Shown piece after piece: positions 23,138 to 44,369 of a stretch of 64,000 bases of DNA (the first letter of the stretch is position 1; every line of letters begins with the position of its first letter). The DNA is taken from NCBI RefSeq assembly GCF_000026145.1, contig NC_009445.1, positions 992,001 through 1,056,000 on the forward strand, written 5' to 3'. The DNA comes from Bradyrhizobium sp. ORS 278. GTDB taxonomy: Bacteria; Pseudomonadota; Alphaproteobacteria; Rhizobiales; Xanthobacteraceae. The notes below the pieces were generated by a model. That model had not been told where the DNA came from. It saw nothing but the letters and a program-made list of their open reading frames with translations, and did not search any database. The position numbers and the translations under genes were made by a program.

Positions 23138-23152
23138 GTTATATGCTATAAC
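23138..23152. promoter_or_regulatory. CouR-type box upstream of tarP
   Basis: GTTAT-ATGCT-ATAAC (15 bp; in fact palindromic as GTTATA-TGC-TATAAC). It lies 49 bp upstream of the tarP ATG and resembles an overlapping -10 (TATAAC), a repressor position. The same GTTAT-N5-ATAAC pattern occurs before couA and, relaxed, between couR and the ABC operon. Confidence 0.65.
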
Positions 23153-23201
23153 AATGAAGCAAAGGGCCCTCGAAGGCCCGCGATGGAAGGAGACGACCCC
23201 G

Positions 23202-24221
23202 ATGAGGAAGACGCTTCTGGCGTTGGCGCTGGCTGCCGGTGTGACCACCCCCGCGCTCGCGCAGGACAAGACGTTCGATCTGAAGATTTCGCACTGGGTC
23301 CCTGCCAGCCATCCGCTGCAGAAGGCGCTGGAAGATTGGGCCGCGTCGGTCGAGAAGGCCTCCGGCGGCACCATCAAGGGCAAGGTGTTCCCGGCGCAGC
23401 AGCTCGGCAAGGCGTTCGATCATTACGACATGGCGCGCGACGGCATCGCGGATGTCACTTATGTGAATCCCGGCTATCAGCCCGGCCGCTTCCCGATCAT
23501 CGGCGCCGGCGAGCTGCCGTTCCTGGTCTCCGACGCCAAGGGCGGCTCGGAAGGCCTCGACGCGTGGTACCGCAAATATGCCGAGAAGGAGATGAAGGAC
23601 GTCAAATACTGCCTCGCCTTCGTGCATACGCCGTCGTCGCTGCATACGCGCACCAAGAAGGTGACGATGCCGGAGGATCTCAAGGGCATGAAGATCCGCC
23701 CCGCGGATGCGACGATCGCGAACTTCGTCACCCAGCTCGGCGGCACCAACGTGCAGTCGTCGGCGCCGGAAGTGCGCGACATCATCGAGCGTGGCGTCGC
23801 CGACGGCGTGTTCTTCCCGGCCGGCTCGCTGGTGCTGTTCGGCGTCGACAAGGTCACCAAATTCCACATCGACGCGCCGATGTATGTGACGACCTTCGTG
23901 TTCGTCATGAACAAGGACAAGTACAACCAGATGTCGGCGATGCAGAAGAAGGCGATCGACGACAACTGCAACACGGAGACCGCCGGCAAGGTCGGCGAGC
24001 CCTGGGGCAAGTTCGAGGATGCCGGCGTCGACAAGATCAAGGCGGAGTCAGGCCAGGAGGTCTACAAGCTGACGCCGGAGCAGACCGCGGCCTGGAAGAA
24101 GGCCTCCGAGCCGCTCTTCAAGACCTGGGCCGACGGCGTCAAGAAGACCGGTATCGACGCCGACGCCGCCATGACCGAGCTGAAGGCCTCGCTCGCCAAG
24201 TACAACGCGCTGGCGCAGTAG
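23202..24221 (+). CDS. tarP: TRAP transporter solute-binding protein (TarP-like)
   Basis: A 339-residue periplasmic DctP-type protein with a signal peptide (MRKTLLALALAAG…ALAQ, about residues 1-21). The mature part has the TRAP binding-protein landmarks: ISHWVPASHPLQKALEDWAASVEKASGG and, later, MKIRPADATIANFVTQLGGTNVQSSAPEVRDIIERGVADGVFFPAGSL, containing the Arg that grips the ligand carboxylate. The ATG at 23202 follows GGAAGGAGA. The named symbol is based on gene order (TRAP P-Q-M beside couA/couB and a cou-type ABC operon), as for TarPQM in R. palustris, which takes up p-coumarate and related aromatics. It is controlled by a CouR-type box. Confidence 0.88.
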   Translation: MRKTLLALALAAGVTTPALAQDKTFDLKISHWVPASHPLQKALEDWAASVEKASGGTIKGKVFPAQQLGKAFDHYDMARDGIADVTYVNPGYQPGRFPIIGAGELPFLVSDAKGGSEGLDAWYRKYAEKEMKDVKYCLAFVHTPSSLHTRTKKVTMPEDLKGMKIRPADATIANFVTQLGGTNVQSSAPEVRDIIERGVADGVFFPAGSLVLFGVDKVTKFHIDAPMYVTTFVFVMNKDKYNQMSAMQKKAIDDNCNTETAGKVGEPWGKFEDAGVDKIKAESGQEVYKLTPEQTAAWKKASEPLFKTWADGVKKTGIDADAAMTELKASLAKYNALAQ

Positions 24222-24261
24222 CTCTCATCGCATTCAACTGTTGCGCGGCGGACGGTGCGCC

Positions 24262-24290
24262 CCCTCTCCCCGTTCTTCACGGGGAGAGGG
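24262..24290 (+). terminator. Strong hairpin between tarP and tarQ
   Basis: CCCTCTCCCCGT - tctt/c - ACGGGGAGAGGG forms a stem of about 12 bp with a tiny loop, 41 bp after the tarP stop. No U-run follows, so it may be a partial terminator or an mRNA stabiliser that raises the ratio of binding protein to membrane subunits. The arm sequence also appears in the element at 61031. Confidence 0.55.
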
Positions 24291-24364
24291 AGTTCACCGA
24301 CAGCTGCGCAGCAGCTCGCTCCACACTCTGCGAGAAGCACCAAACTTTCTGGAACGGGGACGCC

Positions 24365-24874
24365 ATGCAGCGCGCCTTCATGGATCGGATCATCGACGCG
24401 ATCGAGTGGATCGCCGCGTTCTTCGTCGGCATCGTCGCGCTCGACATCTTCCTGTCGGTGCTGCTGCGCAACACGCTGAACTACGCGATCCCGGATTCGT
24501 TCGACATCGGCCGCATGCTGCTCGGCATCCTGATCTTCTGGGGCATCGCTGCGACATCTTACCGCGGCACCCACATCACGGTCGATCTCGTCTGGGGCAA
24601 TGTCGGCCCGCGCCAACAGCGCTGGATCGACATCTTCGCCACCCTGGTGCTGCTGTTCGTCGTCACGGTGCAGACCTGGACCCTGTTCGACAAGGTGCGC
24701 GGCACCTATGAGGACAACGTCCTCACCTACGATCTGCACATGCCGACCTGGCCGTTCTTCGCCATTGCCTGGATCGGCGACGTCTCGGCGGTGCTGTTGA
24801 TCGCCATCCGGACCTATCGCCTGATCTTCCATCCCGAGGAGATTCATGAACCTCACGTCAAGCCCACGGAGTAG
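24365..24874 (+). CDS. tarQ: TRAP transporter small membrane subunit (TarQ-like)
   Basis: A 169-residue DctQ-type protein with four transmembrane segments: about 14-36 (IEWIAAFFVGIVALDIFL), 48-66 (MLLGILIFWGIAATSY), 88-108 (FATLVLLFVVTVQTWTLF) and 130-152 (FAIAWIGDVSAVLLIAIRTY). It links the binding protein to the large permease. The chosen ATG follows a GGGGACGCC stretch; the same frame is open far upstream but without a ribosome site and overlapping tarP, so upstream reading was rejected. Gene order P-Q-M supports the assignment. Confidence 0.88.
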   Translation: MQRAFMDRIIDAIEWIAAFFVGIVALDIFLSVLLRNTLNYAIPDSFDIGRMLLGILIFWGIAATSYRGTHITVDLVWGNVGPRQQRWIDIFATLVLLFVVTVQTWTLFDKVRGTYEDNVLTYDLHMPTWPFFAIAWIGDVSAVLLIAIRTYRLIFHPEEIHEPHVKPTE

Positions 24875-24880
24875 GGCCGC

Positions 24881-26200
24881 ATGAGCACGGATGCGGTCGC
24901 CGTCATCGGCTTCGTTGCCCTGTTCGCCCTGATGCTCTTGCGCGTGCCGGTCGGCATGGCGATGGGGCTCGTCGGCGTCTCCGGCTTCGCTTATCTCGTC
25001 AACGGCACGGCGGCGCTGAAGCTGGTCGGCCAGACCTCGATGCGCACGGTCACGGACTACACCTTCGGCGTCATCCCGATGTTCCTGCTGATGGGAACGT
25101 TCGTCTCCAACTCCGGCATGAGCCGCGAGCTGTTCCGCGCCGCCAACGGCTTCGTCGGCCATCTGCGCGGCGGCCTGGGCATCGCTACCGTGGCGGCCTG
25201 CGGCGGCTTCGCCGCGATCTGCGGCTCGTCGGTCGCGACCGCCGCGACGTTCTCCGCGGTGGCCTATCCGGAGATGCGCCGCTTCGGCTATCCGCAATCC
25301 TTCGCCACCGGCGTCATCGCCGCCGGCGGCACGCTCGGCGCCATGTTGCCGCCGTCCACCGTGCTCGCCGTCTACGGTATCATCACCGAGCAGGACATCG
25401 GCAAGCTGTTCATCGCCGGCATCATCCCGGGCCTGCTGGCGATGACCATGTACATGATCACCATCACGGTGATCGGCAAGGTCAGGCCGGACTTCCTGCC
25501 GAAGGGCGAGGCGCCGCCGTGGCGCGAGCGCATCGCGGGGCTGAAGGGCATCTGGGCGCCGGTGCTGCTGTTCCTGTTCGTGATCGGCGGCCTCTATGGT
25601 CTCCCATTCTTGCCGCGCTTCACGCCGACCGAGGCCGGCGGCGTCGGCGCCACCGGCGCGTTCCTGATCGGCGTGTTCACCGGCCGGCTGAACAAGGAGA
25701 AGATCCTGGCCTCGCTGCTGCAGGCGACGCGCACCGCGGCGGCCGTCTTCACCGTGCTGATCGGCGCGCTGATCTTCGGCTACTTCCTCACGGTGACGCA
25801 GACGCCGCAGAAGGTGACGGAATTCCTCACCGGCCTCGGCCTCGGCCCCTACGGCGTGCTGGCGCTGATCATGGTGATGTATCTCGTGCTCGGCTGCCTG
25901 ATGGACGCCATGGCGATGATCATTCTCACCGTGCCGATCATCTTCCCGGTGATCTCGCATCTCGGCTTCGATCCGATCTGGTTCGGCGTCATCATCGTGA
26001 TGACTGTCGAGCTCGGCCTGATCCATCCGCCGGTCGGCATGAACGTCTTCGTGATCAAATCCGTGGTGAAGGACGTGTCATTCTCGACGATCTTCAAGGG
26101 CGTGCTGCCCTTTGTCGCCACCGACCTGATCCGCCTGGTGATCCTGATCGCCTTCCCGCTGCTCGCCACCTGGCTGCCGCAACAGATGATGAACCGATGA
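24881..26200 (+). CDS. tarM: TRAP transporter large permease subunit (TarM-like)
   Basis: A 439-residue DctM-type permease with about 12 hydrophobic segments. Landmarks include GVSGFAYLVNG and FGVIPMFLLMGTFVSNSGMSRELF, the ACGGFAAICGSSVATAATFSAVAYPEMRRFGY segment (family signature for the transport core), and the C-terminal TVELGLIHPPVGMNVFVIKSVVKDV. It is 6 bp after tarQ and its stop overlaps the DUF3237 start (ATGA), so the four genes form one unit. Probable role: sodium- or proton-driven uptake of aromatic acids. Confidence 0.92.
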   Translation: MSTDAVAVIGFVALFALMLLRVPVGMAMGLVGVSGFAYLVNGTAALKLVGQTSMRTVTDYTFGVIPMFLLMGTFVSNSGMSRELFRAANGFVGHLRGGLGIATVAACGGFAAICGSSVATAATFSAVAYPEMRRFGYPQSFATGVIAAGGTLGAMLPPSTVLAVYGIITEQDIGKLFIAGIIPGLLAMTMYMITITVIGKVRPDFLPKGEAPPWRERIAGLKGIWAPVLLFLFVIGGLYGLPFLPRFTPTEAGGVGATGAFLIGVFTGRLNKEKILASLLQATRTAAAVFTVLIGALIFGYFLTVTQTPQKVTEFLTGLGLGPYGVLALIMVMYLVLGCLMDAMAMIILTVPIIFPVISHLGFDPIWFGVIIVMTVELGLIHPPVGMNVFVIKSVVKDVSFSTIFKGVLPFVATDLIRLVILIAFPLLATWLPQQMMNR

Positions 26201-26676
26201 CCGCGCCCGTTCTCGAAACCCGCTATGTCTTCACCCTCACCGTGATGATCGGCGCCGTCACCTCGGCCGGCGAGACCGGCATCGGCGTGCGCCGGATCAT
26301 CCCGATCCATGGCGGCGAGGTGAAGGGCCCCGGCCTGAACGGCGAGGGCGTCAGCGGCCGGATCTGCGATTTCGGCGCCGACTTCCAGGTCATCCGGCCG
26401 AGCGAGCTGATCGACCTCGAAGCCAAATACGGCTTCGAGACCGACGACGGCGCGACGATCTATGTCGAGAACCGCGGCATCCGCTTCGGGCCGATCGACC
26501 TCTTGCAGAAGCTCAAGCGCGGCGAGCCGGTGGAGCCTGCGCTGATCTACTTCCGCACCCACCCGCGCTTTGAGACCGGCCATGACAAATATCGTTGGCT
26601 GATGGAGCACGTCTTCGTCGGCTCCGCCGCCAGGCATGCCGATCGCGTCATCATCGACGTGCATGTGGTGCTGTAG
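26197..26676 (+). CDS. DUF3237-family protein
   Basis: A 159-residue protein of the DUF3237 beta-barrel family. It opens ETRYVFTLTVMIGAVTSAGETGIGVRRIIPIHGGEVKGPGLNGEG and ends FVGSAARHADRVIIDVHVVL, typical of the family. The function of DUF3237 proteins is not known; they often occur with aromatic degradation genes, and here the gene is translationally coupled to the TRAP permease. It may act on a pathway CoA ester or its product, but this is speculation. Confidence 0.85.
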   Translation: MTAPVLETRYVFTLTVMIGAVTSAGETGIGVRRIIPIHGGEVKGPGLNGEGVSGRICDFGADFQVIRPSELIDLEAKYGFETDDGATIYVENRGIRFGPIDLLQKLKRGEPVEPALIYFRTHPRFETGHDKYRWLMEHVFVGSAARHADRVIIDVHVVL

Positions 26677-26701
26677 GTCGGGCTGTCTGCCTCACACTCC
26701 C

Positions 26702-26813
26702 TCATTGCGAGCGCAGCGAAGCAATCCAGGGCCGGGGCGGGACTTAAGATTGCGTCTTGGCGGATGTCATCGGGCCGCGCTTTGCGCGGACCCGTTGGCT
26801 GCTCGCAATGACG
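26702..26813. repeat. Intergenic inverted-repeat element, 'cattgcgagcgcagcgaagcaa' family
   Basis: Left arm ctcattgcgagcgcagc and right arm gctgctcgcaatgac are inverted, with an inner ccgggg/gcgcgg variation. Same family as 31988 and the short hairpin at 55903. Confidence 0.75.
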
Positions 26814-26843
26814 ATGTCAGCGCGAGATATCGCTCCGACCACC

Positions 26844-26963
26844 GCTGTCGTCCCTGCGAACGCAGGGACCCATACCGCGGAATCCATCGGTAAGGCGCCA
26901 CTGTCAGTCATCGTCCCATTCGGGCCGGTGGTTATGGGTCCCTGCGTTCGCGGGGACGACAGC
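26844..26963. repeat. Intergenic inverted-repeat element, 'gtccctgcgaacgcag' variant
   Basis: Arms ctgtcgtccctgcgaacgca and tgcgttcgcggggacgacag, with ggtggttatgggtccc and ggacccata motifs also inverted. A near-identical element follows at 27658. It lies between the DUF3237 gene and the secreted protein. Confidence 0.85.
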
Positions 26964-27078
26964 GAAATATGAGGCTGACGGTTTTGCCTGACCGACAGCG
27001 CTGCGAACGGCAGGACGTCCGGACGCCATGGCGTAGTGCCGGGCTATCCGGACGTCAGAAATCCCCCGAGACCGACGC

Positions 27079-27441
27079 TTAATCCTCGTCGTCCCAATCC
27101 GACACCCGGCCGTAGCCGCCGTGGTCGCAATTGCGATAGCGGGGAGCCGGCGTGTAGCGGTAACCCTCATAGCCATAACCGTCATACGCCGCGTCGCGAT
27201 AGTGGGAGCGGTATTGGTATTGCGGCCGGTATTGGTATTGCGAGCGGTACACCGGAGCCGGCTCATAGGCTTGCGCTTCCGACGCGATGGCGCCGCCGAC
27301 GAGGGCGCCGACCAGGAGACCGCCGATGAGCGCCGCGTTGCGGCCGTCATGCGCCTGGGCCGGCGCCGCGCCGGCGAGCAGGGTAGCGGTTACGGCAAGC
27401 GCGGCGACGCCGCCGGCGAGAGATGTCTTCAGCGAAACCAT
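27079..27441 (-). CDS. Small secreted Tyr/Arg-rich protein
   Basis: A 120-residue protein with an N-terminal signal peptide (MVSLKTSLAGG…APAQA, about residues 1-31), a hydrophobic Gly/Ala segment (IGGLLVGALVGGAIAS) and a Tyr-rich tail with repeated Y-R-x-x-Y units (YRSQYQYRPQYQYRSHY) ending in an acidic WDDED. Similar small periplasmic or outer-envelope proteins of unknown function are common in bradyrhizobia. The ATG at 27441 follows GGAGGGG. An upstream in-frame Met (27453) is also possible. It is flanked on both sides by inverted-repeat elements. Confidence 0.7.
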   Translation of the reverse strand: MVSLKTSLAGGVAALAVTATLLAGAAPAQAHDGRNAALIGGLLVGALVGGAIASEAQAYEPAPVYRSQYQYRPQYQYRSHYRDAAYDGYGYEGYRYTPAPRYRNCDHGGYGRVSDWDDED

Positions 27442-27657
27442 GGTCCCCTCCATTGGGAAGTTTGGTGACGGGAGACGTTCTACGCGGTGGGCTTTGAAGC
27501 GGTGCTGAATGTGATGTTGTCGGCCGTTCATGTGCCCCACCGAGCTGGCTGGAGGTGAGCAAGACATTTCGCCTTCGTCCAGGGCAGGCCTTGGCGGCCA
27601 GCCGGGGTTCGACGAGCGCGAAGGTGCTGTGGGCGACGCTGTCGGCCCAAAACATTG

Positions 27658-27783
27658 GTGTCGTCCCTGCGAACGCAGGGACCCATAATCCCGGTCACCT
27701 ATTGGGATACGAAGCTGGTCCGGCAGCTTGCCTCACAACATCTCCCTGGGGTTATGGGTCCCTGCGTTCGCAGGGACGACAGC
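27658..27783. repeat. Intergenic inverted-repeat element, 'gtccctgcgaacgcag' variant
   Basis: Arms gtgtcgtccctgcgaacgca and tgcgttcgcagggacgacag, almost the same as 26844, with a centre of about 85 bp that is not conserved. Confidence 0.85.
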
Positions 27784-27899
27784 GGAGGACTGCGAGGCGC
27801 CGGTAGGCGACATCCGGCGTATTCGATAAAAAATAAATATGTTGCGGTTTGTCGGAATTCATGGTTCACTTCCGCCATCCCGTCCCAAGCCGAGGGGCG

Positions 27900-28265
27900 T
27901 TGCGCGCGATCGTCACGACACGCGGGGCGGGGAGCGGTGGCCGCGATCATGTTGCAGCGTGAGTGAGATCTCGCGCGGACGAACGGCATGGCGCGGACGT
28001 GAAGTCGCAGCGTGCTGGCACCCCGATGCTGGTGCTACGTTCGCGACGGCGCTTGCGCGCCGCGCGGGCAATGGTGGCCAACAAGCCCGGCGCACCAGGC
28101 AGACTGCGTATAAGCGTGAAAACCATCGCGCAGGGAAGGCCGGGCGTTCTCCGGCTGCACCTGTGGTACCTGCTGCCTGCATTTGTGTTAGCAGGCGGGC
28201 CGCAGGCGTCAGTCGGCGCCTGGCCTTCCCTGCGCCCTCTGCACGAGAGCGTGAACGCGAGCGGA
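27900..28265. repeat. Probable large dispersed bradyrhizobial repeat
   Basis: Non-coding stretch between the inverted repeat and couA. It includes long internal complements GCGCAGGGAAGGCC (28128-28141) and GGCCTTCCCTGCGC (28222-28235) around a region beginning 'cgttctccggctgcacctg'. I recognise this 'cgcgcagggaaggccggg … ccttccctgcgccctct' pattern as a repeat that recurs in Bradyrhizobium genomes, from memory only. Several open frames run through it but look spurious. The remaining 220 bp upstream of couA hold the promoter. Confidence 0.55.
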
Positions 28266-28446
28266 TGAACGATCAGCAAGCCCCGGGCGCGAATTCGCCG
28301 CGGGAATGCCGCATCATGTCATTTGCCTTTGCGTCGATGCGCCTTACGATGCGGCCTGCGCGCCTCATGTAGTTCATGCGAGGCACCGCTCATTTTGCAT
28401 TGCACAACACGTTGTCCGGCGCCGCTTATTGACTCCTGGCAAGATC

Positions 28447-28461
28447 GTTATAAAACATAAC
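28447..28461. promoter_or_regulatory. CouR-type box upstream of couA
   Basis: GTTAT-AAAAC-ATAAC, a perfect 5-bp-arm dyad 26 bp upstream of the couA ATG and just downstream of a TTGACT at 28429-28434 that could be the -35. The box overlaps the -10 region, suiting repression by the MarR-type CouR, which in R. palustris binds near couAB and is released by p-coumaroyl-CoA. A second dyad, ACAAC-AC-GTTGT, lies at 28404-28415. Confidence 0.7.
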
Positions 28462-28487
28462 TATTCTGAACAGGACACAATCGAACG

Positions 28488-29288
28488 ATGGGAAACGCCG
28501 ACACCACGCCAGCGGGCGATCCGTCGCTGCTGCAGATCGAACAGCAGGGCGCCGTCCTGACCATCGGGCTCAACCGGCCCGCCAAGCGCAACGCGCTGAA
28601 TGACGGCATCATCCTCGCGATCGGCGAGTGCTTCACCAGCCTGCCCGATGATATCCGCTGCGTCGTGATCCACGGCCTCGGCGACAATTTCTCCTCCGGC
28701 CTCGATCTCTCCGAACTGCGCGAGCGCGACGCCACCGAAGGCCTGGTGCATTCGCAGATGTGGCACCGCGTGTTCGACCGCATCCAATATTGCCGTGTGC
28801 CGGTGATCGCCGCGCTGAAGGGCGCCGTCATCGGCGGCGGCCTCGAGCTCGCCTGCGCCGCGCATATCCGCGTCGCCGAGCCCTCGGCCTATTTCGCGCT
28901 GCCCGAGGGCCAGCGCGGCATCTTCGTCGGCGGTGGCGGCTCGGTGCGGCTGCCGCGCCTGATCGGCGTCGCCCGCATGATGGACATGATGCTGACCGGC
29001 CGCGTCTATTCCGCGACCGAAGGCTCGTCCTATGGCTTCGCGCAATACCTCGTCGAAGCCGGCGCGGCGACGACCAAGGCGCTGGAACTCGCGGCCAAGA
29101 TCGCCAATAACGCGCCGCTGACGAATTTCGCAGTGCTGCAGGCGCTGCCGATGATTGCGGAAGCCAATCCGCAGACCGGTCTCTTGATGGAATCGCTGAT
29201 GGCCACCGTCGCGCAGAGCGACAAGGAGGCCAAGGGCCGCATCCGCGCCTTTCTCGATCACAAGACAGCCAAAGTGAAGCCGACGTGA
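28488..29288 (+). CDS. couA: Enoyl-CoA hydratase (CouA-like)
   Basis: A 266-residue crotonase with FSSGLDLSEL (68-77) and KGAVIGGGLELACAAHIRVAE (111-131) for the oxyanion hole. Glu140 in LPEGQRGIFVGGGGSVRLPRLIG sits at the first catalytic Glu position; the second reads Asp166. It should hydrate p-coumaroyl- or feruloyl-CoA to the 3-hydroxy ester (or cleave it in the lyase branch), acting with CouB. The gene starts the couAB operon, with 1 bp to couB, downstream of a CouR-type box. It is distinct in sequence from the crotonase at 3656. Symbol by locus synteny with R. palustris; not verified by search. Confidence 0.88.
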   Translation: MGNADTTPAGDPSLLQIEQQGAVLTIGLNRPAKRNALNDGIILAIGECFTSLPDDIRCVVIHGLGDNFSSGLDLSELRERDATEGLVHSQMWHRVFDRIQYCRVPVIAALKGAVIGGGLELACAAHIRVAEPSAYFALPEGQRGIFVGGGGSVRLPRLIGVARMMDMMLTGRVYSATEGSSYGFAQYLVEAGAATTKALELAAKIANNAPLTNFAVLQALPMIAEANPQTGLLMESLMATVAQSDKEAKGRIRAFLDHKTAKVKPT

Positions 29289-29289
29289 C

Positions 29290-31191
29290 ATGACCGCGCA
29301 AACAACAAAAATCACACAGGGAGGAACGGACAGCACGGCGCGGAGCGCCAGTGTTCATCCGTTGCGCGCCATCTCCTTCAATGATCCCGTCGTCGACGTC
29401 GAGCGCCGCGACGACGGCACCATCTATCTCCGGCCGACGCGTCCGCTCGGCGACTTTCCGCAGCGGATCACCGATCGGCTGCATCACTTCGCCAAGGAAA
29501 CGCCGGAGCGCGTGTTCATGGCCGAGCGCGTCGGCCCCGAAGGCTGGCGCGAGCTGAGCTATGGCACCTTGCTGGCGGCAAGCCGGCATATCGCCTCCGG
29601 CCTGCTCGCCCGCGGCCTGTCGCCGGACCGCCCGGTGATGATCCTGTCCGGCAATTCGATCGACCACGCGCTAGTCGCGTTCGGCTCGCTCTATGCCGGC
29701 GTGCCGTTCTGCCCGGTGTCGCCGGCCTATTCGCTGGTGTCGCGCGATTACGGCAAGCTCGCCTACCTGATGAAGCTGCTGACGCCGGGTCTCGTCTTCG
29801 TCGACGACGCCGACAAGTTTGCCGACGCGCTGATCGCCAACGCGCCGGAAGGCACCGAGATCGTCGCATCCTTCGGCGAAGTCCCGGGCCGCAAGATCAC
29901 GATGCTGTCGGAGCTGATCGCCTCGCCGCTGTTCGCCGGTCTCGATGCTGTCCATGACAAGATCGGCCCGGACACGATCGCGAAATTCCTGCTGACCTCG
30001 GGCTCGACCGGCAATCCCAAGGCCGTCATCAACACCCAGCGCATGATCTGCGCCAACCAGGTGATGATCCGCGAGACGCTCGCCTTCCTGAAGGACGAGC
30101 CGCCCGTCATCGTCGACTGGCTACCGTGGAACCACACCTTCGGTGGCAACCACAACATCGGTCTCACGCTGTTCAACGGCGGCTCGATGTATCTCGACCA
30201 GGGCAAGCCGGTGCCCGGCGGCATCGAGGAGACCGTGCGCAACCTGCGGGAGATCTCGCCGACGGTCTATTTCAACGTCCCCAAGGGCTACGAGTCGCTG
30301 CTGCCCTATTTCCGCGAGGACCCCAATCTGCGGAAGACGTTCTTCCGCCGGCTGCATGCGATGTTCTTCTCCGGCGCCGCGCTCGCGCCGCACGTCTGGA
30401 ACGAGCTCGACGAGCTCTCCGTGGCCGAAACGGGGTATCGCGTGCCGATGCTGACGGGACTCGGCTCGACCGAGACCGCGCCGTTCTTCATGTCGGTCAA
30501 TCCGCGCACCAGCCGCTCCGGCCATGTCGGCCTTCCCGTGCCAGGCAACGAGGCCAAGCTCGTGCCGAACAACGGCAAGATGGAAGTGCGCGCCAAGGGC
30601 CCGAACGTGACGCCCGGATATTGGCGTCTTCCCGAAGTCTCGGCCGCCGCCTTCGACTCCGAGGGCTACTACCAGATGGGCGACGCGCTGAAGCCCGCCG
30701 ATCCCAACGACTTCAATGCCGGGTTCGATTTCGACGGCCGCGTCGCCGAGGACTTCAAGCTGGCGTCGGGCACCTGGGTGTCGGTCGGCCCCTTGCGCGC
30801 GCGCTTCGTCGCGGCCTGCGCACCGCTGGCGCGCGACGTCATCATCGCCGGCATCAACCGCGACGAGATCGCGGCCATCGTCGTGCTCGACCTCGACGGC
30901 TGCCGCCTGATCAACGCGACATTGCCGTTCGATGATCTCGCCGAAACCGCGTCGGATCCGCTGATCGTGGCCGCGTTCCGCGAGCGCTTCACGAAATTCC
31001 TGAAGACCGCGACCGGCTCCTCGACGCGGATCACGCGCGCGGTGCTGCTCGGCCTGCCCTTGTCGATCGACAAGGGCGAGGTCACCGACAAGGGCTCGAT
31101 CAACCAGCGCGCCGTGCTGGAGAACCGCAAGGACCTGATCGAGCGCATCTACGCGTCGACACCGGACGACGACATCATCATCGCCGGCTGA
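29290..31191 (+). CDS. couB: Hydroxycinnamate-CoA ligase (CouB-like feruloyl-CoA synthetase)
   Basis: A 633-residue adenylate-forming ligase. The P-loop LLTSGSTGNPK lies near 234-244, DWLPWNHTFGGN near 276-287, TGLGSTETAP near 390-399, GRVAEDFKLASGTWVS near 485-500, and the catalytic-lysine region VTDKGSINQR near 598-607. Expected reaction: p-coumarate (or ferulate, caffeate) + ATP + CoA to the hydroxycinnamoyl-CoA. In R. palustris the product of this enzyme is also the effector of CouR. The ATG overlaps nothing but is only 1 bp after couA, so expression depends on coupling. Paralogue at 4504. Confidence 0.9.
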   Translation: MTAQTTKITQGGTDSTARSASVHPLRAISFNDPVVDVERRDDGTIYLRPTRPLGDFPQRITDRLHHFAKETPERVFMAERVGPEGWRELSYGTLLAASRHIASGLLARGLSPDRPVMILSGNSIDHALVAFGSLYAGVPFCPVSPAYSLVSRDYGKLAYLMKLLTPGLVFVDDADKFADALIANAPEGTEIVASFGEVPGRKITMLSELIASPLFAGLDAVHDKIGPDTIAKFLLTSGSTGNPKAVINTQRMICANQVMIRETLAFLKDEPPVIVDWLPWNHTFGGNHNIGLTLFNGGSMYLDQGKPVPGGIEETVRNLREISPTVYFNVPKGYESLLPYFREDPNLRKTFFRRLHAMFFSGAALAPHVWNELDELSVAETGYRVPMLTGLGSTETAPFFMSVNPRTSRSGHVGLPVPGNEAKLVPNNGKMEVRAKGPNVTPGYWRLPEVSAAAFDSEGYYQMGDALKPADPNDFNAGFDFDGRVAEDFKLASGTWVSVGPLRARFVAACAPLARDVIIAGINRDEIAAIVVLDLDGCRLINATLPFDDLAETASDPLIVAAFRERFTKFLKTATGSSTRITRAVLLGLPLSIDKGEVTDKGSINQRAVLENRKDLIERIYASTPDDDIIIAG

Positions 31192-31215
31192 TCAACGAAA
31201 TAAGGGAGAGACGAC

Positions 31216-31980
<765 letters not shown>

Positions 31981-31987
31981 GAATTCA

Positions 31988-32067
31988 TCATTGCGAGGAG
32001 CGAAGCGACGAAGCAATCCAGAGTCCCGATGGGACCCTGGATTGCTTCGCTTCGCTCGCAATGACGG
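31988..32067. repeat. Intergenic inverted-repeat element, 'cattgcgaggagcgaagc' family
   Basis: Arms tcattgcgaggagcgaagc and cgcttcgctcgcaatgacgg around a second pair (gcaatccagagtcc and ggaccctggattgc), forming a nearly continuous 80-nt palindrome downstream of the SDR. Confidence 0.9.
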
Positions 32068-32074
32068 AGAGAAA

Positions 32075-32154
32075 CGTAGGGTGGGCAAAGCGCAGCGTGC
32101 CCACCGCCGCTGGAAATGGTGGGCACGGCGCTGAGCGCCTTTGCCCACCCTACG
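32075..32154. repeat. Intergenic inverted-repeat element, 'gtagggtgggcaaagcg' family
   Basis: Second copy of the family seen at 7821: arms cgtagggtgggcaaagcgca and gcgcctttgcccaccctacg, inner cgtgcccacc/ggtgggcacg. Confidence 0.9.
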
Positions 32155-32189
32155 GACCGCCATCGGCGATGCAGTGAGGCTTCCAAGAC

Positions 32190-32609
32190 ATGTTCGTCAA
32201 CCGTCGCGACGTGCAAATCCAGTGGGGTGACTGCGATCCCGCCAATATCGTTTACTACCCGCGCTACTTCGCGATGTTCGATGATGCAACCTCGGTCATG
32301 TTCGAGGCGGCCGGCTTCTCCAAGCAGGACATCGTCCGCCGCTACGGGCTGGTCGGCATCCCCATGGTTGACACCCGCGCCAAGTTCTACATCCCCTCGA
32401 CCTATGGCGACTGGATCACGATCGAAAGCCGGGTCGAGAGCATCAAGCGCTCGTCCTTCGACGTCACCCACAAGGTGTTCAAGGGCGAGGCGCTTGCGAT
32501 CGAGGGTTTCGAGACGCGGGTGCTGGTCGGGCGCGATCCGGCCGATCCGGACAAGTTGAAATCGGCGCCATTTCCGGAGGAGATGCGGGCGAAATTCCTC
32601 GGCGAATGA
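32190..32609 (+). CDS. 4-hydroxybenzoyl-CoA thioesterase-like hotdog protein
   Basis: A 139-residue hotdog-fold thioesterase. WGDCDPANIVYYPRYF (about 11-26) contains the catalytic Asp of the 4HBT family (D-C-D-P-A-G/N-I-V). It should hydrolyse an aryl-CoA such as 4-hydroxybenzoyl-CoA, the expected product of side-chain beta-oxidation of p-coumarate, giving 4-hydroxybenzoate and recycling CoA. It lies after couA-couB-SDR, separated by two inverted repeats, and before couP. The ATG starts the standard MFVNRRDVQIQWGD N-terminus. Confidence 0.9.
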   Translation: MFVNRRDVQIQWGDCDPANIVYYPRYFAMFDDATSVMFEAAGFSKQDIVRRYGLVGIPMVDTRAKFYIPSTYGDWITIESRVESIKRSSFDVTHKVFKGEALAIEGFETRVLVGRDPADPDKLKSAPFPEEMRAKFLGE

Positions 32610-32693
32610 GGCGAAGGAATGGGTGCGACACGCGGCGGTCTTAAGGATGTTCAGCTGTCGTGCTTTGGTCGGATGGAGAGGCGTGATCTTCTC

Positions 32694-32723
32694 GTGTTCA
32701 ATGCTATGATCACGGTTGAACAC
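32694..32723. promoter_or_regulatory. Inverted repeat upstream of couP
   Basis: GTGTTCAA - N14 - TTGAACAC, perfect 8-bp arms, about 100 bp before the couP start. It does not match the GTTAT-N5-ATAAC box. The rest of this 215-bp spacer has a small frame at 32619 that lacks support. Confidence 0.4.
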
Positions 32724-32824
32724 ATGATCGGCCGGCCCAACTGGAAGGCGCCCTGGTTGAGGGCGGAACTGCAAACAGGATCGGCGGATCACGAGCTGAA
32801 CCGAAAAGATTGAGGGAGGATTTG

Positions 32825-33970
32825 ATGAGGAAGGCCTATCTGGCTGCGGCTGGCGTCATTGCGATGCTGGCGTCGGCGCCGGCGCTGGCGCAGACCAGCG
32901 AGATCACCATCGGCATCACCACGACCACGACGGGTCCGGGCGCAGCCCTCGGTATCCCCGAGCGCAACGCGCTGGAATTCGTGCCGAAGGAGATCGGCGG
33001 CGTACCGCTGAAGGTGATCGTGCTCGATGACGGCGGCGATCCGACCACGGCGACCACCAACGCCCGCCGCTTCGTGACGGAGTCGAAGGCCGACATCATC
33101 ATGGGCTCGGCGCTGACCCCGCCGACCATCGCGGTGTCCAACGTCGCCAACGAAGCCGGCATTCCGCATTTCGGCCTGGCGCCGTTCCCGGTCACCCCTG
33201 AGCGCACCAAATGGTCGGTAGTGATGCCGCAGCCGGTGCCGATCATGGGCAAGGTGCTCTACGAGCACATGAAGGCGCACAACATCAAGACCGTCGGCTA
33301 TATCGGCTATTCCGATTCCTACGGCGATCTCTGGTTCAACGATCTCAAGAACCAGGCCGTGCCGATGGGCATCACCATCGCCGACGAGGAGCGCTTCGCG
33401 CGTCCCGACACGTCGGTGACCGGCCAGGTGCTGAAGCTGGTCGCCGCCAATCCCGACGCGATCCTGGTCGGCGCTTCCGGCACCGCGGCGGCGCTGCCGC
33501 AGACCGAACTGCGCGAGCGCGGCTACACCGGTCTGATCTATCAGACCCATGGTGCGGCGAGCATGGACTTCATCCGCATCGCCGGCAAGGCGGCGGAGGG
33601 CGTGATCATGGCCTCGGGCCCGGTGATGTCGCCGGAAACGCAAGATGACAGCGCGCTGACCAAGAAGCCCGGCCTCGAGCTCAACAAGGCCTATGAGGCC
33701 AAGTACGGCCCGAACAGCCGCAGCCAGTTCGCCGGTCACTCCTTCGACGCGTTCGAGATCCTCAAGCGCGTCATCCCGGTGGCGCTCAAGACCGCGAAGC
33801 CCGGCACGCCGGAGTTCCGCGAGGCGATCCGCCAGGCGCTCCTGAGCGAGAAGGATCTCGCGGCCTCGCAGGGCGTCTACAACTTCACCGAAAAGGATCG
33901 CTCGGGCCTCGACGACCGCGCCCGCATCATCCTGACCGTGAAGGACGGCAAATACGTTCCCGCGAAGTGA
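32825..33970 (+). CDS. couP: ABC transporter substrate-binding protein (CouP-like)
   Basis: A 381-residue periplasmic binding protein of the branched-chain-amino-acid type (Peripla_BP_6), with a signal peptide (MRKAYLAAAGVIAML…ALAQ, about 1-23). Landmarks: EITIGITTTTTGPGAALGIPERNALEFVPKEIGG (N-lobe) and the DDGGDPTTATTNARRFV segment. CouP in R. palustris binds p-coumarate and related compounds; assignment here rests on locus synteny and family. The start ATG is preceded by GAGGGAGGA. The ABC permease/ATPase genes are on the opposite strand downstream, an unusual arrangement that needs two promoters. Confidence 0.9.
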   Translation: MRKAYLAAAGVIAMLASAPALAQTSEITIGITTTTTGPGAALGIPERNALEFVPKEIGGVPLKVIVLDDGGDPTTATTNARRFVTESKADIIMGSALTPPTIAVSNVANEAGIPHFGLAPFPVTPERTKWSVVMPQPVPIMGKVLYEHMKAHNIKTVGYIGYSDSYGDLWFNDLKNQAVPMGITIADEERFARPDTSVTGQVLKLVAANPDAILVGASGTAAALPQTELRERGYTGLIYQTHGAASMDFIRIAGKAAEGVIMASGPVMSPETQDDSALTKKPGLELNKAYEAKYGPNSRSQFAGHSFDAFEILKRVIPVALKTAKPGTPEFREAIRQALLSEKDLAASQGVYNFTEKDRSGLDDRARIILTVKDGKYVPAK

Positions 33971-33995
33971 GCGAACGGACCATAGCTTCGTTTGA

Positions 33996-34024
33996 GAAAG
34001 GCCGGCTCGGTGAGCCGGCCTTTC
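33996..34024 (+). terminator. Hairpin terminator after couP
   Basis: GAAAGGCCGGCTC - GGT - GAGCCGGCCTTTC: a perfect 13-bp stem with a 3-nt loop, 26 bp after the couP stop. No long T-run follows. It should separate couP from the shikimate-dehydrogenase-like gene. Confidence 0.75.
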
Positions 34025-34065
34025 GGCCATCTGGACGGAGCGTTTCTTTTTCTCGGAGGCCTGCG

Positions 34066-34872
34066 ATGATCTTCGCCCCCACCGGCGCCACCCGGCTCCA
34101 CATCATCATCGGCGATCCGATCGCGCAGGTGCGCGCGCCGGCCGGTGTCAGCGAAGCCTTCGCGGATCGCGAGAGCGACGCGATCCTGGTGGCTGTGCAA
34201 GTCGCGTCGGCCGATCTCGCCGACTTCCTGGCGACAATGACGCGGGTGAAGAATCTCGATGGCATCGTCGCCACGATCCCGCACAAATTCGCCTGCTACC
34301 GCGCTTGCGTCACGGCGACCGAGCGCGCGCACTTCATCGGCGCCGTGAACCTGATGCGGCGTGGTGCGAACGGCCGTTGGCATGGCGACATGGTCGACGG
34401 CCTCGGCTTCGTCGGCGCGGCGAAGGCGGCAGGCTTTGATCCGGCCGGTGTTCGCGCCTTGCAGATCGGGGCCGGCGGCGCCGGTTCGGCTATCGCGCTG
34501 GCCCTGATCGACGCCGGCGTGCGCGAGCTCGCCATTCACGACAGCGATGCAGGCCGTCGCGATGCCCTGATCGCGCGCCTCAACGAGCGCGGCAAAGGCC
34601 GCGCGGTCGTCGGCAGCACTGACGCGGATGGATTTGACATGGTCGCGAATGCGAGCCCGGCGGGCATGCAGTCCAGTGATCCCCTGCCCATCGACATGGC
34701 GACCGTCAGCCCGTCAGCCTATTGCGGCTGCGTCATCACCAAGCCGGAGGTGTCGCCGTTCATCGCCGCTGCACGAGAGCTTGGCTGCCTGACGGCGACC
34801 GGCATCGACATGTACCGGGCGCTGGAGCGTGTGATGGTCGACTTCCTGCTGTCGAAGGAGGCACCATCCTGA
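34066..34872 (+). CDS. Shikimate dehydrogenase-like oxidoreductase (AroE-fold), substrate unknown
   Basis: A 268-residue AroE-fold protein. It has ATIPHK (Lys near 73) and the NAD(P)-binding GAGGAGSAIALAL (about 136-148), plus GRWHGDMVDGLGF and a C-terminal GIDMYRALERVMVDFLL. The usual shikimate carboxylate-binding S-x-S is replaced (GDPIAQVRAP instead of G-x-P-I-x-H-S-x-S-P), and the GDNTDG motif reads GDMVDG, so ordinary shikimate is an unlikely substrate. The ATG at 34066 follows CGGAGG. It sits inside the aromatic uptake locus, between couP and the convergent ABC genes; a quinate- or aryl-linked alicyclic substrate is plausible but unproven. Confidence 0.85.
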   Translation: MIFAPTGATRLHIIIGDPIAQVRAPAGVSEAFADRESDAILVAVQVASADLADFLATMTRVKNLDGIVATIPHKFACYRACVTATERAHFIGAVNLMRRGANGRWHGDMVDGLGFVGAAKAAGFDPAGVRALQIGAGGAGSAIALALIDAGVRELAIHDSDAGRRDALIARLNERGKGRAVVGSTDADGFDMVANASPAGMQSSDPLPIDMATVSPSAYCGCVITKPEVSPFIAAARELGCLTATGIDMYRALERVMVDFLLSKEAPS

Positions 34873-34901
34873 GACGGCGCCGTCCCATCCAGCTGTCCGG
34901 C

Positions 34902-35627
34902 TCAGCTCGCCGCCGTCTCGGCAAAGCCGAGATAGCTCGCCGCGACGCGCTGGTCGGTCGCGATTTCCGAGGCTTTGCCGCTCAGCACGAACTCGCCGAG
35001 CTCCATGACATAGGCGCGGTCGGCGACCTTGAGCGCGGCCTTGGCGTTCTGTTCGACCAGCAGCACCGAGACGCCTTCCTCGCGCAGCTTGGCGACGATC
35101 TCGAAGATGCCGGCGACGATGATCGGAGCGAGGCCGAGGCTGGGCTCGTCGAGCATCAGCATCTTCGGCGAGCCCATCAGCGCGCGGCCCATCGCCAGCA
35201 TCTGCTGCTCGCCGCCGGACAGCGTGCCGGCGAGCTGCTTGCGCCGCTCCTTCAGCTTAGGGAACAGCGTGTAGACGTGCTCGAAGCCGCGCGCCGCATG
35301 CGCTTTCGACATTCTGAAGGCCCCAAGCTGCAGATTGTCCTCGACGTTCATGGTCGCGAACAGCTCGCGATGCTCCGGCACCAGGCAGAGGCCGCGCGCG
35401 ACGCGGTCCTCGATCTCGTAGCGGGCCAGGTCCTCGCCCAGGAAGGAGACGCGGCCCTTGAGCGGGAACACGCCCATGATGGCGCTGAGCAGAGTTGTCT
35501 TGCCGGCGCCGTTGGCGCCGATGATGGTGACGATCTCGTTCTCCACCACGGTGAGCGAGACCGAGCGGACCGCCTCGACCTTGCCGTAGGAGACGTGAGC
35601 GTCGGTGACTTCCAGCAGGGTGCTCAT
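34902..35627 (-). CDS. ABC transporter ATP-binding protein (LivF-type), cou system
   Basis: A 241-residue ATPase with Walker A GANGAGKTTLL (about 37-47), the signature LSGGEQQMLAMGRAL and Walker B LMLDEPSLGLAP, and the H-loop in LLVEQNAK. The N-terminus (STLLEVTDAHVSYGKVEAV) is the LivF form for branched-chain/aromatic-acid transporters. Its start overlaps the stop of the fused permease-ATPase gene upstream by 4 bp, so it ends the operon. It is convergent with the AroE-like gene, 29 bp away. Confidence 0.93.
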   Translation of the reverse strand: MSTLLEVTDAHVSYGKVEAVRSVSLTVVENEIVTIIGANGAGKTTLLSAIMGVFPLKGRVSFLGEDLARYEIEDRVARGLCLVPEHRELFATMNVEDNLQLGAFRMSKAHAARGFEHVYTLFPKLKERRKQLAGTLSGGEQQMLAMGRALMGSPKMLMLDEPSLGLAPIIVAGIFEIVAKLREEGVSVLLVEQNAKAALKVADRAYVMELGEFVLSGKASEIATDQRVAASYLGFAETAAS

Positions 35628-37393
35628 GCGGCGGCTCCGAGATACGCCTTGATCACCTCGGGATTGGTCTTGATCGCGGCTGGTGTGCCCTCGGCGATCT
35701 TGGTGCCGAAATCGAGCACCACGATGCGGTCGGCGAGATCCATGACGAAGCCCATGTCGTGCTCGACAAGCAGCACCGACATGCCGCCGGCGCGCAGATC
35801 GCGCAGCAGCGCGCCGAGGCGCTGCTTCTCCATGTGGCGCAGGCCGGCGGCGGGCTCATCGAGCAGCAGCAGCATCGGATCGACGCACAGCGCGCGGGCG
35901 ATCTCGACGATGCGTTGCTGGCCCAGGGACAGGGAGCCGGCGAGCTGGTGCATCTGGTCGCCGAGGCCGACGCGCTCGATCTGCCGCGCGGCTTCCGCGA
36001 GCAGCCTGGCCTCGTCGGCGCGGTCGAGCCTGAACATGCTGGACAGCGCGCCGGAATGGCCGCGCAGATGCGCGCCGATCGCGACGTTCTCGAGCACGGT
36101 CATGTCGGGCACCAGCTTGACGTGCTGGAAGGTGCGGGAAATGCCGAGCTTGACGACGTCCTGCGGCGGCGCGTTGCCGACGGCCTTGCCGAGCACCGAG
36201 ATGTTGCCGGAGGTCGGCGGCAGCACGCCGGTGATCAGATTGAAGGTCGTGCTCTTGCCGGCGCCGTTCGGCCCGATCAGCGCGACGATCTCGCGCGCCT
36301 GGACGTCGAACGAGACATTGTTGACCGCGACCACGCCGCCGAACTGTTTGCGGGCGTTGTCGACCTGCAAGAGCACGCTCGGCGTGCCCGCGGAGCGCTC
36401 GCGGGACGGCAGCTTGATCGTGGTGTCCGGCTTCTTGGCGGCAGGCTTGAACGGCAGCCGCGCCGTCAGCCACGGCCACAGGCCGGTCGGTGCGAGCTGC
36501 AGCAGGGTGACGAGCAGGATGCCGAACACGATGGTCTCGAGCTGGCCCTCGCCATGCAGCAGAAGCGGGAGATAGCTTTGCAGCACCTCCTTCAGGATCA
36601 CGACGATCGCCGCACCGAGCACGCCGCCCCAGACATAACCGGCGCCGCCGACCACGGCGACGAACAGATATTCGATGCCGGCCTGGGCACCGAACGGCGT
36701 CGGGTTCACGGCGCGGGTGAAGTGCGCATAGAGCCAGCCGGACAGGCCGGCGAGCACGGCCGCGTAGATGAACACCAGGAGCTTGGCGCGCGGCGAATAC
36801 ACGCCGAACGCTTCGGCAGCGATGTGGCCGCGGCGCAGCGCGCGGATGGCGCGGCCGGTGCGGGAGTCCAGCAGATTCATCGTCAGCAGGGCCGCGATTA
36901 GCACGGCGGCCCAGATCGCGAAATAGATCGTGCCGGGATCGAGCATCTTGAGGCTGCCGATCGACAGCGGCGGGATGCCGGAGACACCGTCGTTGCGGCC
37001 GAGAAAGGCGAGCTTGCTGAAGAGATAATAGAGGCCGAGACCCCAGGCGAGCGTGCCGAGCGGCAGGTAGTGACCGGACAGCCTGACCGTGACGAGGCCG
37101 AGCAGCACGGCAGCGACACCCGACACCAGCAGCGACAGCGGCAGTGTCAGCCACGGCGAGACGCCATACTGCGCCGACAGCACCGCGGTCGTGTAGGCGC
37201 CGAAGCCGACGAAGGCAGCCTGGCCGAACGAGGTGAGGCCGCCGACACCGGTCAGCAGCACCAGACCCATCGCCACCAGCGCGGACAGGCCGATATTGTC
37301 GAGCAGCACGATCCAGAACGGCGGCATGCCCGGGATGAACGGGATCGCCGCGACGAGGACGGCAAAGATGATGAGAGGCCAACGCTCGCGCAC
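35624..37393 (-). CDS. Fused ABC permease-ATPase (LivM-LivG type), cou system
   Basis: A 589-residue fusion. The N-terminal about 320 residues are a LivM permease (GVGGLTSFGQAAFVGFGAYT and the LLDSRTGRAIRALRRGHIAAEAFGV loop). The C-terminal about 250 residues are a LivG ATPase: Walker A GPNGAGKSTTFN near 373-384, signature LSLGQQRIVEIARAL, Walker B LLLLDEPAAGL, and LLVEHDMGFV. A short linker (PFKPAAKKPDTTIKLPSRERSAG) joins them. Such fusions occur in cou-type transporters, which makes the complex a homodimer-like assembly of this chain with LivH and LivF. It lies 3 bp after the LivH gene on the same strand. Confidence 0.93.
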   Translation of the reverse strand: MRERWPLIIFAVLVAAIPFIPGMPPFWIVLLDNIGLSALVAMGLVLLTGVGGLTSFGQAAFVGFGAYTTAVLSAQYGVSPWLTLPLSLLVSGVAAVLLGLVTVRLSGHYLPLGTLAWGLGLYYLFSKLAFLGRNDGVSGIPPLSIGSLKMLDPGTIYFAIWAAVLIAALLTMNLLDSRTGRAIRALRRGHIAAEAFGVYSPRAKLLVFIYAAVLAGLSGWLYAHFTRAVNPTPFGAQAGIEYLFVAVVGGAGYVWGGVLGAAIVVILKEVLQSYLPLLLHGEGQLETIVFGILLVTLLQLAPTGLWPWLTARLPFKPAAKKPDTTIKLPSRERSAGTPSVLLQVDNARKQFGGVVAVNNVSFDVQAREIVALIGPNGAGKSTTFNLITGVLPPTSGNISVLGKAVGNAPPQDVVKLGISRTFQHVKLVPDMTVLENVAIGAHLRGHSGALSSMFRLDRADEARLLAEAARQIERVGLGDQMHQLAGSLSLGQQRIVEIARALCVDPMLLLLDEPAAGLRHMEKQRLGALLRDLRAGGMSVLLVEHDMGFVMDLADRIVVLDFGTKIAEGTPAAIKTNPEVIKAYLGAAA

Positions 37394-37396
37394 GGC

Positions 37397-38437
37397 TCAA
37401 TCCTTCTCTTCTTCGACCGCGGGCGCGGCGAGCGAACGCAGCAGCAGGACCGGGATCAGCAGTGTGAAGACGATCACTTCCTTGAAGTTCGAGGCGTAGA
37501 ACGAGGAGAACGCCTCGACGATGCCAACGACGATCGCGGCCACGGCGGTCAGCGGATAGCTGATGAGACCGCCGATGATCGCGGCGATGAAGCCCTTCAG
37601 GCCGATCAGGAAGCCGGTGTCGTAATAGAGCGTCGTGATCGGGACGATCAGGATGCCGGAGAGCGCGCCGATGGTGGAGGCCAGCAGGAACGCGATCTGG
37701 CCGGACAGCGTGGTGCGGATGCCGACCAGGCGGGCGCCGAGCCGGTTGACGGCGGTGGCGCGCAGCGCCTTGCCGTACAAGGTCAAGCCGAAGAACAGCC
37801 AGAGGCCGATGATGAACGCAACGGTGATGCCGTAGACCGCCATGCCCTGGCCGGTGAAGCGGAGCGAGCCGAGCGTTGCGCTGGCGGTCAGGAGCGTCGG
37901 GCCGCGCTGCCCTTCGGCGCCGAAGAACAACAGGCCAAGGCCCTGCAGCGCGAGGTGGACGCCGACCGAGGCGATCAGCAGCACCAGCACCGAGGTGTGG
38001 GCGAGCGGCTGGAATACGATGCGGTACAGCGACAGGCCGATGCTCGCCACGATCATCAGCGACAGCACCAGGCTGACGCCCGCTGGCATGCGTTGGTCGG
38101 CAGCCCACATGCTGGCGAGCAGTACGACGACCGGAAAGGCGACGTGAAGGGCGAAGGCGCGCGCGATCTTTGGCGCGTGCAGCGTCTTGCGCATCGCATA
38201 GAGGTCAAAGGCAAAGGCGACGAGGCCGATCACGACCGCAAGCTTGGCGGTCCCGGGCATGCGGCCGGCGGCAAGCGAGGCGTAGGTGAGCGCGCCGTAG
38301 GTGACGAATTCGCCCTGCGGGATGAGGATGACGCGCGTGACGGCGAATACCAGCACCAGCGCCAGCCCGAGCAGGGCGTAGATCGCGCCGTTGGTAATGC
38401 CGTCCTGCAACAGGAACAGCAAGATCGTTGTGTTCAA
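37397..38437 (-). CDS. ABC transporter permease (LivH-type), cou system
   Basis: A 346-residue LivH permease with about nine hydrophobic segments and the family's ITNGAIYALLGLALVLVFAVTRVILIPQGEFVTYGALTYA start. Between the second and later helices there is an additional block of about 90 residues (about 63-150: AFDLYAMRKTLHAPKIARAFALH…) lengthening it relative to classical LivH (about 290-310). The start is a TTG with GGGGGAG 9 nt upstream, giving MNTTILLFLLQDG; longer in-frame starts run into the operator region and were rejected. First gene of the minus-strand ABC operon, divergent from couR. Confidence 0.88.
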   Translation of the reverse strand: MNTTILLFLLQDGITNGAIYALLGLALVLVFAVTRVILIPQGEFVTYGALTYASLAAGRMPGTAKLAVVIGLVAFAFDLYAMRKTLHAPKIARAFALHVAFPVVVLLASMWAADQRMPAGVSLVLSLMIVASIGLSLYRIVFQPLAHTSVLVLLIASVGVHLALQGLGLLFFGAEGQRGPTLLTASATLGSLRFTGQGMAVYGITVAFIIGLWLFFGLTLYGKALRATAVNRLGARLVGIRTTLSGQIAFLLASTIGALSGILIVPITTLYYDTGFLIGLKGFIAAIIGGLISYPLTAVAAIVVGIVEAFSSFYASNFKEVIVFTLLIPVLLLRSLAAPAVEEEKD

Positions 38438-38527
38438 GACAGGACGCTCCCCCTCAATGGTGACCGCACGCCGCGGGGTGCCTTGCGCCCGCGGCTGGTC
38501 GGAGCAGTTGAATGGCTGCCCGTGTTT

Positions 38528-38558
38528 GATATAGTGGATAACAATTATCGAATATAAT
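38528..38558. promoter_or_regulatory. Two tandem CouR-type boxes in the couR/ABC divergent promoter
   Basis: GATAT-AGTGG-ATAAC (38528-38542) and ATTAT-CGAAT-ATAAT (38544-38558), both near-matches to GTTAT-N5-ATAAC, 16 bp apart centre to centre. Between them also sits GATAA-CAA-TTATC (38537-38549). They lie 73 bp upstream of the couR ATG and 91 bp upstream of the permease start, ideal for auto- and operon regulation. Confidence 0.6.
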
Positions 38559-41765: not shown

Positions 41766-42035
41766 TGTGCGTGTCTCCCGTGTTGCTCTGGATGATGTGT
41801 CATGGCCTCCTTGGTGGAGGCTCTCTTTGTGACCGGGAAACTATAGCAGAGCCGGTGCGGCGCGGCTGCGACATCGCGGCACGGGCCATGGTTTCGCGGT
41901 CTGCCCAACCGTTGGTCTGTTGTGCAACTGCGAGGGGTAACGCAATCTCTGCGGGATCTTGCCTTGCAACAACAGCCTGAAATGACGGGCCGGTGTTCAT
42001 TCACCGTTGCGAAGGGAAGCTGCGCGCATGAAAAA
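41766..42035. other. Promoter-bearing spacer upstream of the first binding-protein gene
   Basis: About 270 bp between the first binding-protein gene and the terminator of the second. It contains a GTTG-TG-CAAC dyad near 41919-41928 and no supported gene, so the first binding protein probably has its own promoter. Confidence 0.5.
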
Positions 42036-42062
42036 GCCCTCCGTGCCGGTAGCACGGAGGGC
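42036..42062 (-). terminator. Rho-independent terminator after the second binding-protein gene
   Basis: On the minus strand GCCCTCCGTGC - TACCG - GCACGGAGGGC followed by TTTTTC: a perfect 11-bp stem plus T-run, a textbook intrinsic terminator. It ends the IclR-LivG-F-H-M-SBP transcript. Confidence 0.9.
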
Positions 42063-42116
42063 CAGTGTAGATCGGCATCGCTTTCTGCGGCGATGCACGA
42101 TGGCTCGCTTCTTCGG

Positions 42117-43340: not shown

Positions 43341-43350
43341 GAATTCCTCC

Positions 43351-44367: not shown

Positions 44368-44369
44368 GA

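Follow-up and report, generated by a model that had tools for sequence, protein, structure and literature searches.

CouR of Rhodopseudomonas palustris is a MarR repressor of the couAB genes that is released by p-coumaroyl-CoA, and the cou/tar locus of Bradyrhizobium sp. ORS 278 raises the question of how many of its genes, and which genes elsewhere, answer to the CouR protein encoded there. The window analyzed herein is the whole stretch of 64,000 nucleotides, and its positions are used throughout unless a genome coordinate is given. The original prediction was that copies of one palindrome, GTTAT-N5-ATAAC, place the TRAP transporter, couAB, the ABC transporter and couR itself under CouR, and that couP may be regulated separately. 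On the evidence of conservation the first part is well supported for tarPQM, couAB, the ABC operon and couR, and the couP clause is not supported. We propose that the boxes are very probably operators through which CouR (38631-39137) controls TRAP uptake, couAB, the ABC transporter and couR, a reading drawn from sequence comparison.

Genes and boxes of the cou/tar locus

The cou and tar gene names are taken from the R. palustris genes and the products from protein family searches. On the plus strand the TRAP transporter is represented by tarP, encoding the solute-binding protein (DctP, 23202-24221), tarQ, encoding the small permease (DctQ, 24365-24874, start codon uncertain), and tarM, encoding the large permease (DctM, 24881-26200). 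The same strand carries couA (enoyl-CoA hydratase family, 28488-29288), couB (AMP-binding CoA ligase, 29290-31191), a short-chain dehydrogenase gene (SDR, 31216-31980) that has no box of its own and whose relatives, among the matches listed, bear generic names, a 4HBT-type thioesterase gene (32190-32609) and couP, which encodes an ABC solute-binding protein (Peripla_BP_6, 32825-33970). The ABC operon, comprising a permease, a permease-ATPase fusion and an ATPase (34902-38440, minus strand), is transcribed away from couR (plus strand), which encodes the MarR-family repressor orthologous to R. palustris CouR. The family searches also place a shikimate dehydrogenase-like gene among the locus genes, and the named loci close to the window include those of Bradyrhizobium sp. 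BTAi1 and B. aeschynomenes. Two further ABC solute-binding proteins and two permeases adjoin the couR locus on the minus strand (40566-45248), with no preceding box at up to two mismatches. In many Bradyrhizobium (L055-L058 and further named loci) the ABC genes are on the plus strand and precede tarP, unlike the arrangement behind couP in the window, and hence the locus has been rearranged with its boxes retained.

All four of the predicted boxes are present. The box before tarP, GTTATATGCTATAAC (23138-23152), is perfect and starts 64 bp before the tarP ATG, and that before couA, GTTATAAAACATAAC (28447-28461), is also perfect and covers the -10 region expected there. A doublet separates couR from the ABC operon; its first box, GATATAGTGGATAAC (38528-38542), has one mismatch and the second, ATTATCGAATATAAT (38544-38558), has two and starts 16 bp after the first.

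The genome-wide search with one mismatch allowed agrees with the prediction that such boxes do not occur at random frequency. In the genome of 7,456,587 bases a perfect GTTAT-N5-ATAAC is found at two places, both in the cou/tar locus, and a sequence with at most one mismatch at eight, three of them inside the 15.4-kb stretch of the window that holds the four boxes. The binomial probability of at least three of eight places falling there is about 5e-7, for a stretch that was itself chosen because it bears boxes. The reversed pattern gives, in this genome, 37 matches at up to one mismatch and no perfect one. When the half-sites are permuted, a scan at up to one mismatch finds a mean of at most 1.53 promoters per set, and the best single permutation (half-site ATTGT) reaches 21/43 at couR; the real box in the same scan is found at 63/75 tarP, 80/80 couA and 43/43 couR promoters. 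Chance origin of the strict boxes is rejected on the genome counts, the permuted half-sites and the binomial calculation. Taken by itself, the relaxed count within the window does not reach significance, since the five matches at up to two mismatches compare with a shuffle mean of 2.45 and 12 of 100 shuffles reach five. Nor is the motif alone specific: of 198 family genomes, 114 have a perfect box at some place and 63 have CouR at E up to 1e-35. The argument rests on the position and conservation of the box, not on the motif alone.

Conservation and geometry of the promoters

Three sets of loci were scanned from -300 to +30 for [AG]TTAT-N5-ATAA[CT] or a sequence with at most one mismatch to GTTAT-N5-ATAAC: the best 80 named couB loci, 29 couR loci from 60 other genus genomes searched, and, from the 52 family genomes outside the genus that bear CouR, the couR regions of 40. 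The named and genus sets share at least three genomes, and loci too short upstream were left out; the counts are not independent, given the relatedness of the loci and the double entry of some genomes. With the best named couB loci included, the box precedes couA in 110/110 promoters (79/79 and 31/31), tarP in 96/99 (73/74 and 23/25) and the couR/ABC pair in 81/81 (12/12, 29/29 and 40/40), and the conservation before orthologous genes that had been called for is therefore borne out at all three positions. The other gene starts of the loci present a different picture under the same criterion, with no box before SDR (0/78 and 0/16), tarM (0/77 and 0/26), ABC1 (0/41 and 0/40), ABC2 (0/12, 0/28 and 0/40) or mofrl (0/6, 0/1 and 0/5), and with single cases in the family set before tarQ (1/26, and 0/75) and couB (1/32, and 0/80 of the best named loci). 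The boxes are not equally strict, as perfect copies are found at 8/75 tarP promoters versus 80/80 couA promoters (best named loci, window included). The usual Bradyrhizobium tarP box is ATTATATCATATAAC, with one mismatch, and most begin with ATTAT. The distance from box to start codon ranges from 22 to 89 bp at couA and from 61 to 217 bp at tarP.

The geometry of the couA promoter suggests how such a box might act and also what else it might be. The likely -35 element of couA is TTGACT (28429-28434, plus strand), and in 100 of 111 couA promoters a TTGAC starts 18 bp upstream of the box, so that the box covers the expected -10 and a block to polymerase is the simple inference. By the same token the palindromes might be ordinary -10 elements (TATAAT-like) that are symmetrical by chance, as the right half-site does resemble a -10 hexamer and the spacing from TTGAC is the one just given. 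We regard this as very improbable. Across the family loci and the window both half-sites are conserved at 0.93-0.97, compared with 0.55-0.67 for the 5-bp spacer and 0.64-0.74 for the flanks (at tarP the spacer, at 0.67, is about equal to the flanks, at 0.64), and a single side would suffice for a -10 element. The near absence of the pattern at the other gene starts also argues against plain -10 elements, as do the two boxes in fixed register in the couR-ABC region. This 16-bp register is kept in 69 of 71 sequences, the locus of the window being counted twice, and the exceptions, L218 and L223, have one box each. The left half of the first box is always deviant and is GATAT or GGTAT in most loci. 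We infer from this arrangement that the doublet would hold a pair of dimers, on opposite sides of the helix.

The boxes, taken as putative CouR operators, can be compared with what is known of CouR in R. palustris. The CouR protein of the window matches the solved R. palustris structure (PDB 6c28; also 6c2s and 6c9t) at E 4.8e-69 and is 70% identical to the CouR of L199, probably R. palustris PS3, and its helix-turn-helix segment LRPNFV is conserved at 0.98 versus 0.68 for the whole protein (71 sequences). The L199 locus has GTTATGATCTATAAC before couA and GTTATAACCTATAAC before tarP; an SDR gene between couB and the thioesterase gene is present in the window and was not found at the L199 locus. 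The R. palustris CouR footprint of Hirakawa from 2012 reportedly overlaps the couAB start site. An inverted repeat is present in the couAB promoter here (28447-28461), and the main text of PMC9594313 gives no operator letters for R. palustris CouR. The accessible part of PMC3610893 (citing Hirakawa 2012 and its reference 16) places TRAP and ABC genes in the R. palustris CouR regulon, so that the target classes predicted here, couAB and the TRAP and ABC transporters, are the same, and Phattarasukol 2012, cited in the accessible part of PMC4943940 and entered there as PMC3457485, is titled as a study of the p-coumarate degradation regulon. With boxes present and conserved at the TRAP and ABC genes here, the predicted regulon would extend a known system, since it is already reported for R. 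palustris (PMC3610893, accessible part).

couP and the couAB transcript

The proposal that couP may be regulated separately came from its boxless leader, a feature that is confirmed in the window, in 75/75 named loci (from the best 80 named couB loci) and, among the family loci, in 32 of 38. Its position points the other way. In the window couP lies downstream of couA, couB, the SDR gene and the thioesterase gene on the same strand, and in 31 of the 38 family loci couB precedes couP and shares its strand, none of these loci (0/31) having a couP box. The six family loci that do have one (L194, L206, L207, L210, L213 and L219) all belong to a single genus, g25, and are without couAB at the locus; the remaining locus, L224, has neither a couP box nor couB, and its contig ends there. 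A whole-genome search for CouA in the six g25 genomes finds no match in five and a 44% match in one. These six loci have couR, couP and the ABC genes but lack couAB, the predicted source of the CoA ligand, and one event may lie behind all six couP boxes.

Two strong inverted repeats, at 32009-32049 and 32075-32154, lie between the SDR and thioesterase genes; they are possibly repeat elements and could weaken read-through to couP, which would favor separate control. A simple scan, however, finds no terminator-like site in 28380-35000, and the accessible part of PMC3610893 counts R. palustris rpa1789 (couP) among the CouR-controlled genes. Regulation of couP apart from couAB is thus unlikely, and on the simplest reading of the gene order couP is normally served by the couA operator, from which transcription would read through to it; couP has its own box only where couAB is missing.

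An unlinked amidohydrolase and the reach of the proposed regulon

Beyond the locus, RNTATNNNNNATAAY is found at 13 places in the genome, five within the proposed regulon and eight elsewhere. The genome places at up to one mismatch also include L004 and L006, and one of the eight off-locus places, L003, lies inside a predicted peptidase gene. Two others of the eight were rejected on comparison with relatives: that before yeiH has no [AG]TTAT-N5-ATAA[CT] in any of ten relatives (three have some two-mismatch sequence), and that before an epimerase gene has no counterpart at up to two mismatches in any of eleven. In two g25 genomes (L310 and L311) a common box, ATTATCTCATATAAC, is found near a LysR-type gene and may belong to that regulator.

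What is new here is an unlinked box before a PF04909 amidohydrolase. The box, GTTATATGGTATAAT (G000:C1:6363270-6363284), starts 54 bp before the start (6363324) of the amidohydrolase gene (place L008, 6363270-6364205), which matches PF04909 at E 8.1e-61 and belongs to the amidohydrolase superfamily. It is separated from couA by 5.3 Mb in contig coordinates, or, should the chromosome be circular, by about 2.1 Mb in the opposite direction. A tRNA-editing-domain gene lies 15 bases behind the amidohydrolase gene. The amidohydrolase gene is found in 58 of 60 genus genomes, and the strict box precedes it in all 30 of the loci fetched from those 58 (its own included). Of 48 loci drawn across the family from CouR-bearing genomes, 33 have the strict box, made up of 10/10 in Bradyrhizobium (40/40 for that genus overall) and 23/38 outside. 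The 15 loci without it fall in g26 (ten), g6 (two), g43 (two) and g25 (one), and up to about 1.5 kb upstream of these there is only one two-mismatch sequence, at -1368. None of 12 amidohydrolase homologues from genomes without CouR has the strict box, an imperfect control because these proteins are less similar (55-76%), and one of them, L280, has at -45 a sequence with one mismatch, GTTGTGCCGCATAAC, that does not fit the strict form. A close form of the protein (at least 84% identity) is found in 48 of 197 other family genomes, all of which have CouR, and 14 genomes have CouR without the close form; shared descent accounts for part of this co-occurrence. From the placement and conservation of its box, the distal amidohydrolase gene is a probable further CouR target.

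These data also bear on whether the boxes might be the operators of another MarR protein. At E up to 1e-3 a search of the genome finds 14 CouR-like proteins, including a CouR paralogue of 39% identity at G000:C1:1172485-1172961, and a paralogue could bind a similar box. Against this, the family loci examined have couR and the ABC operon in divergent orientation on either side of the doublet, R. palustris is reported to exert this control through CouR (PMC3610893, accessible part), and the strict amidohydrolase box is seen in 33 of 48 loci where CouR is present and in none of 12 where it is absent, a comparison the weak point of which is the greater distance of the control proteins and the one-mismatch sequence in one of them. 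We therefore consider another MarR protein, such a paralogue included, an improbable owner of the boxes and retain CouR as the predicted regulator.

The function of the amidohydrolase can be approached by analogy. In Rhodococcus jostii RHA1, according to the accessible part of PMC4737184, CouR is a MarR repressor of hydroxycinnamate genes that is released by p-coumaroyl-CoA, and the last side-chain step is catalyzed by CouO, a member of the amidohydrolase superfamily. The likeness extends to an operator that is an inverted repeat with a 5-bp spacer and to a pathway with an amidohydrolase, but the RHA1 box, cATTGA-N5-TCAATg, overlaps the -35 (PMC4737184), whereas here GTTAT-N5-ATAAC lies over the -10 region, and none of the four boxes has the RHA1-type form. 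The RHA1 and R. palustris CouR proteins are given as about 25% identical in the accessible part of PMC4737184 and as 36% identical in that of PMC9594313. In Agrobacterium fabrum the MarR repressor HcaR controls a CoA ligase, a hydratase, the dehydrogenase Atu1415 and the beta-keto enzyme Atu1421 (PMC7797058, accessible part), and it resembles the present system by description, as a MarR repressor over like steps; the A. fabrum SpG8-1b genes form one region, whereas the candidate equivalent of Atu1421 is unlinked here. Two of the 120 matches listed for the distal amidohydrolase are named 4-hydroxyphenyl-beta-ketoacyl-CoA hydrolase (77-78% identity) and most of the other named ones amidohydrolase or TIM-barrel hydrolase, and no NCBIfam model matches it, nor does any family model give it the former name. 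The accessible text of PMC13289028 has a single mention of an amidohydrolase, which is another enzyme, and that of PMC12366328 has none; among the literature matches listed, to which subscription papers mostly did not belong, no title concerns these boxes or an amidohydrolase as a CouR target.

A CouO-like role for the distal amidohydrolase is plausible by analogy. Rather more tentatively, and with the balance of probability slightly on the other side, CouR of Bradyrhizobium, Rhodopseudomonas and their relatives may control an unlinked CouO-type amidohydrolase and with it the beta-oxidative removal of the p-coumarate side chain, so that a beta-oxidative route (CouB, CouA, SDR and hydrolase) would stand beside the CouA aldehyde route of R. 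palustris.

In the mechanism that we propose, a CouR dimer would occupy each GTTAT-N5-ATAAC palindrome, and at couA, where the box lies over the -10 region, bound CouR would block transcription. When p-coumarate enters, CouB would convert it to p-coumaroyl-CoA, the ligand known for R. palustris CouR, and this would release the repressor. TRAP uptake, couAB with its downstream genes, the ABC permease operon and couR would then be switched on jointly. The doublet would probably bind two dimers, spaced by about 1.5 helical turns, and serve both divergent promoters, and the amidohydrolase outside the window would be a further probable target.

From the regulon of one model strain our analysis derives a prediction that can be tested throughout a family of bacteria living in soil or with plants. 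Two features represent natural experiments on the wiring of the regulon, namely the tandem doublet in its fixed register and the presence of a couP box where couAB is missing. The box before the distal amidohydrolase points to a specific new candidate target, and with it comes the question of which side-chain pathway these organisms use.
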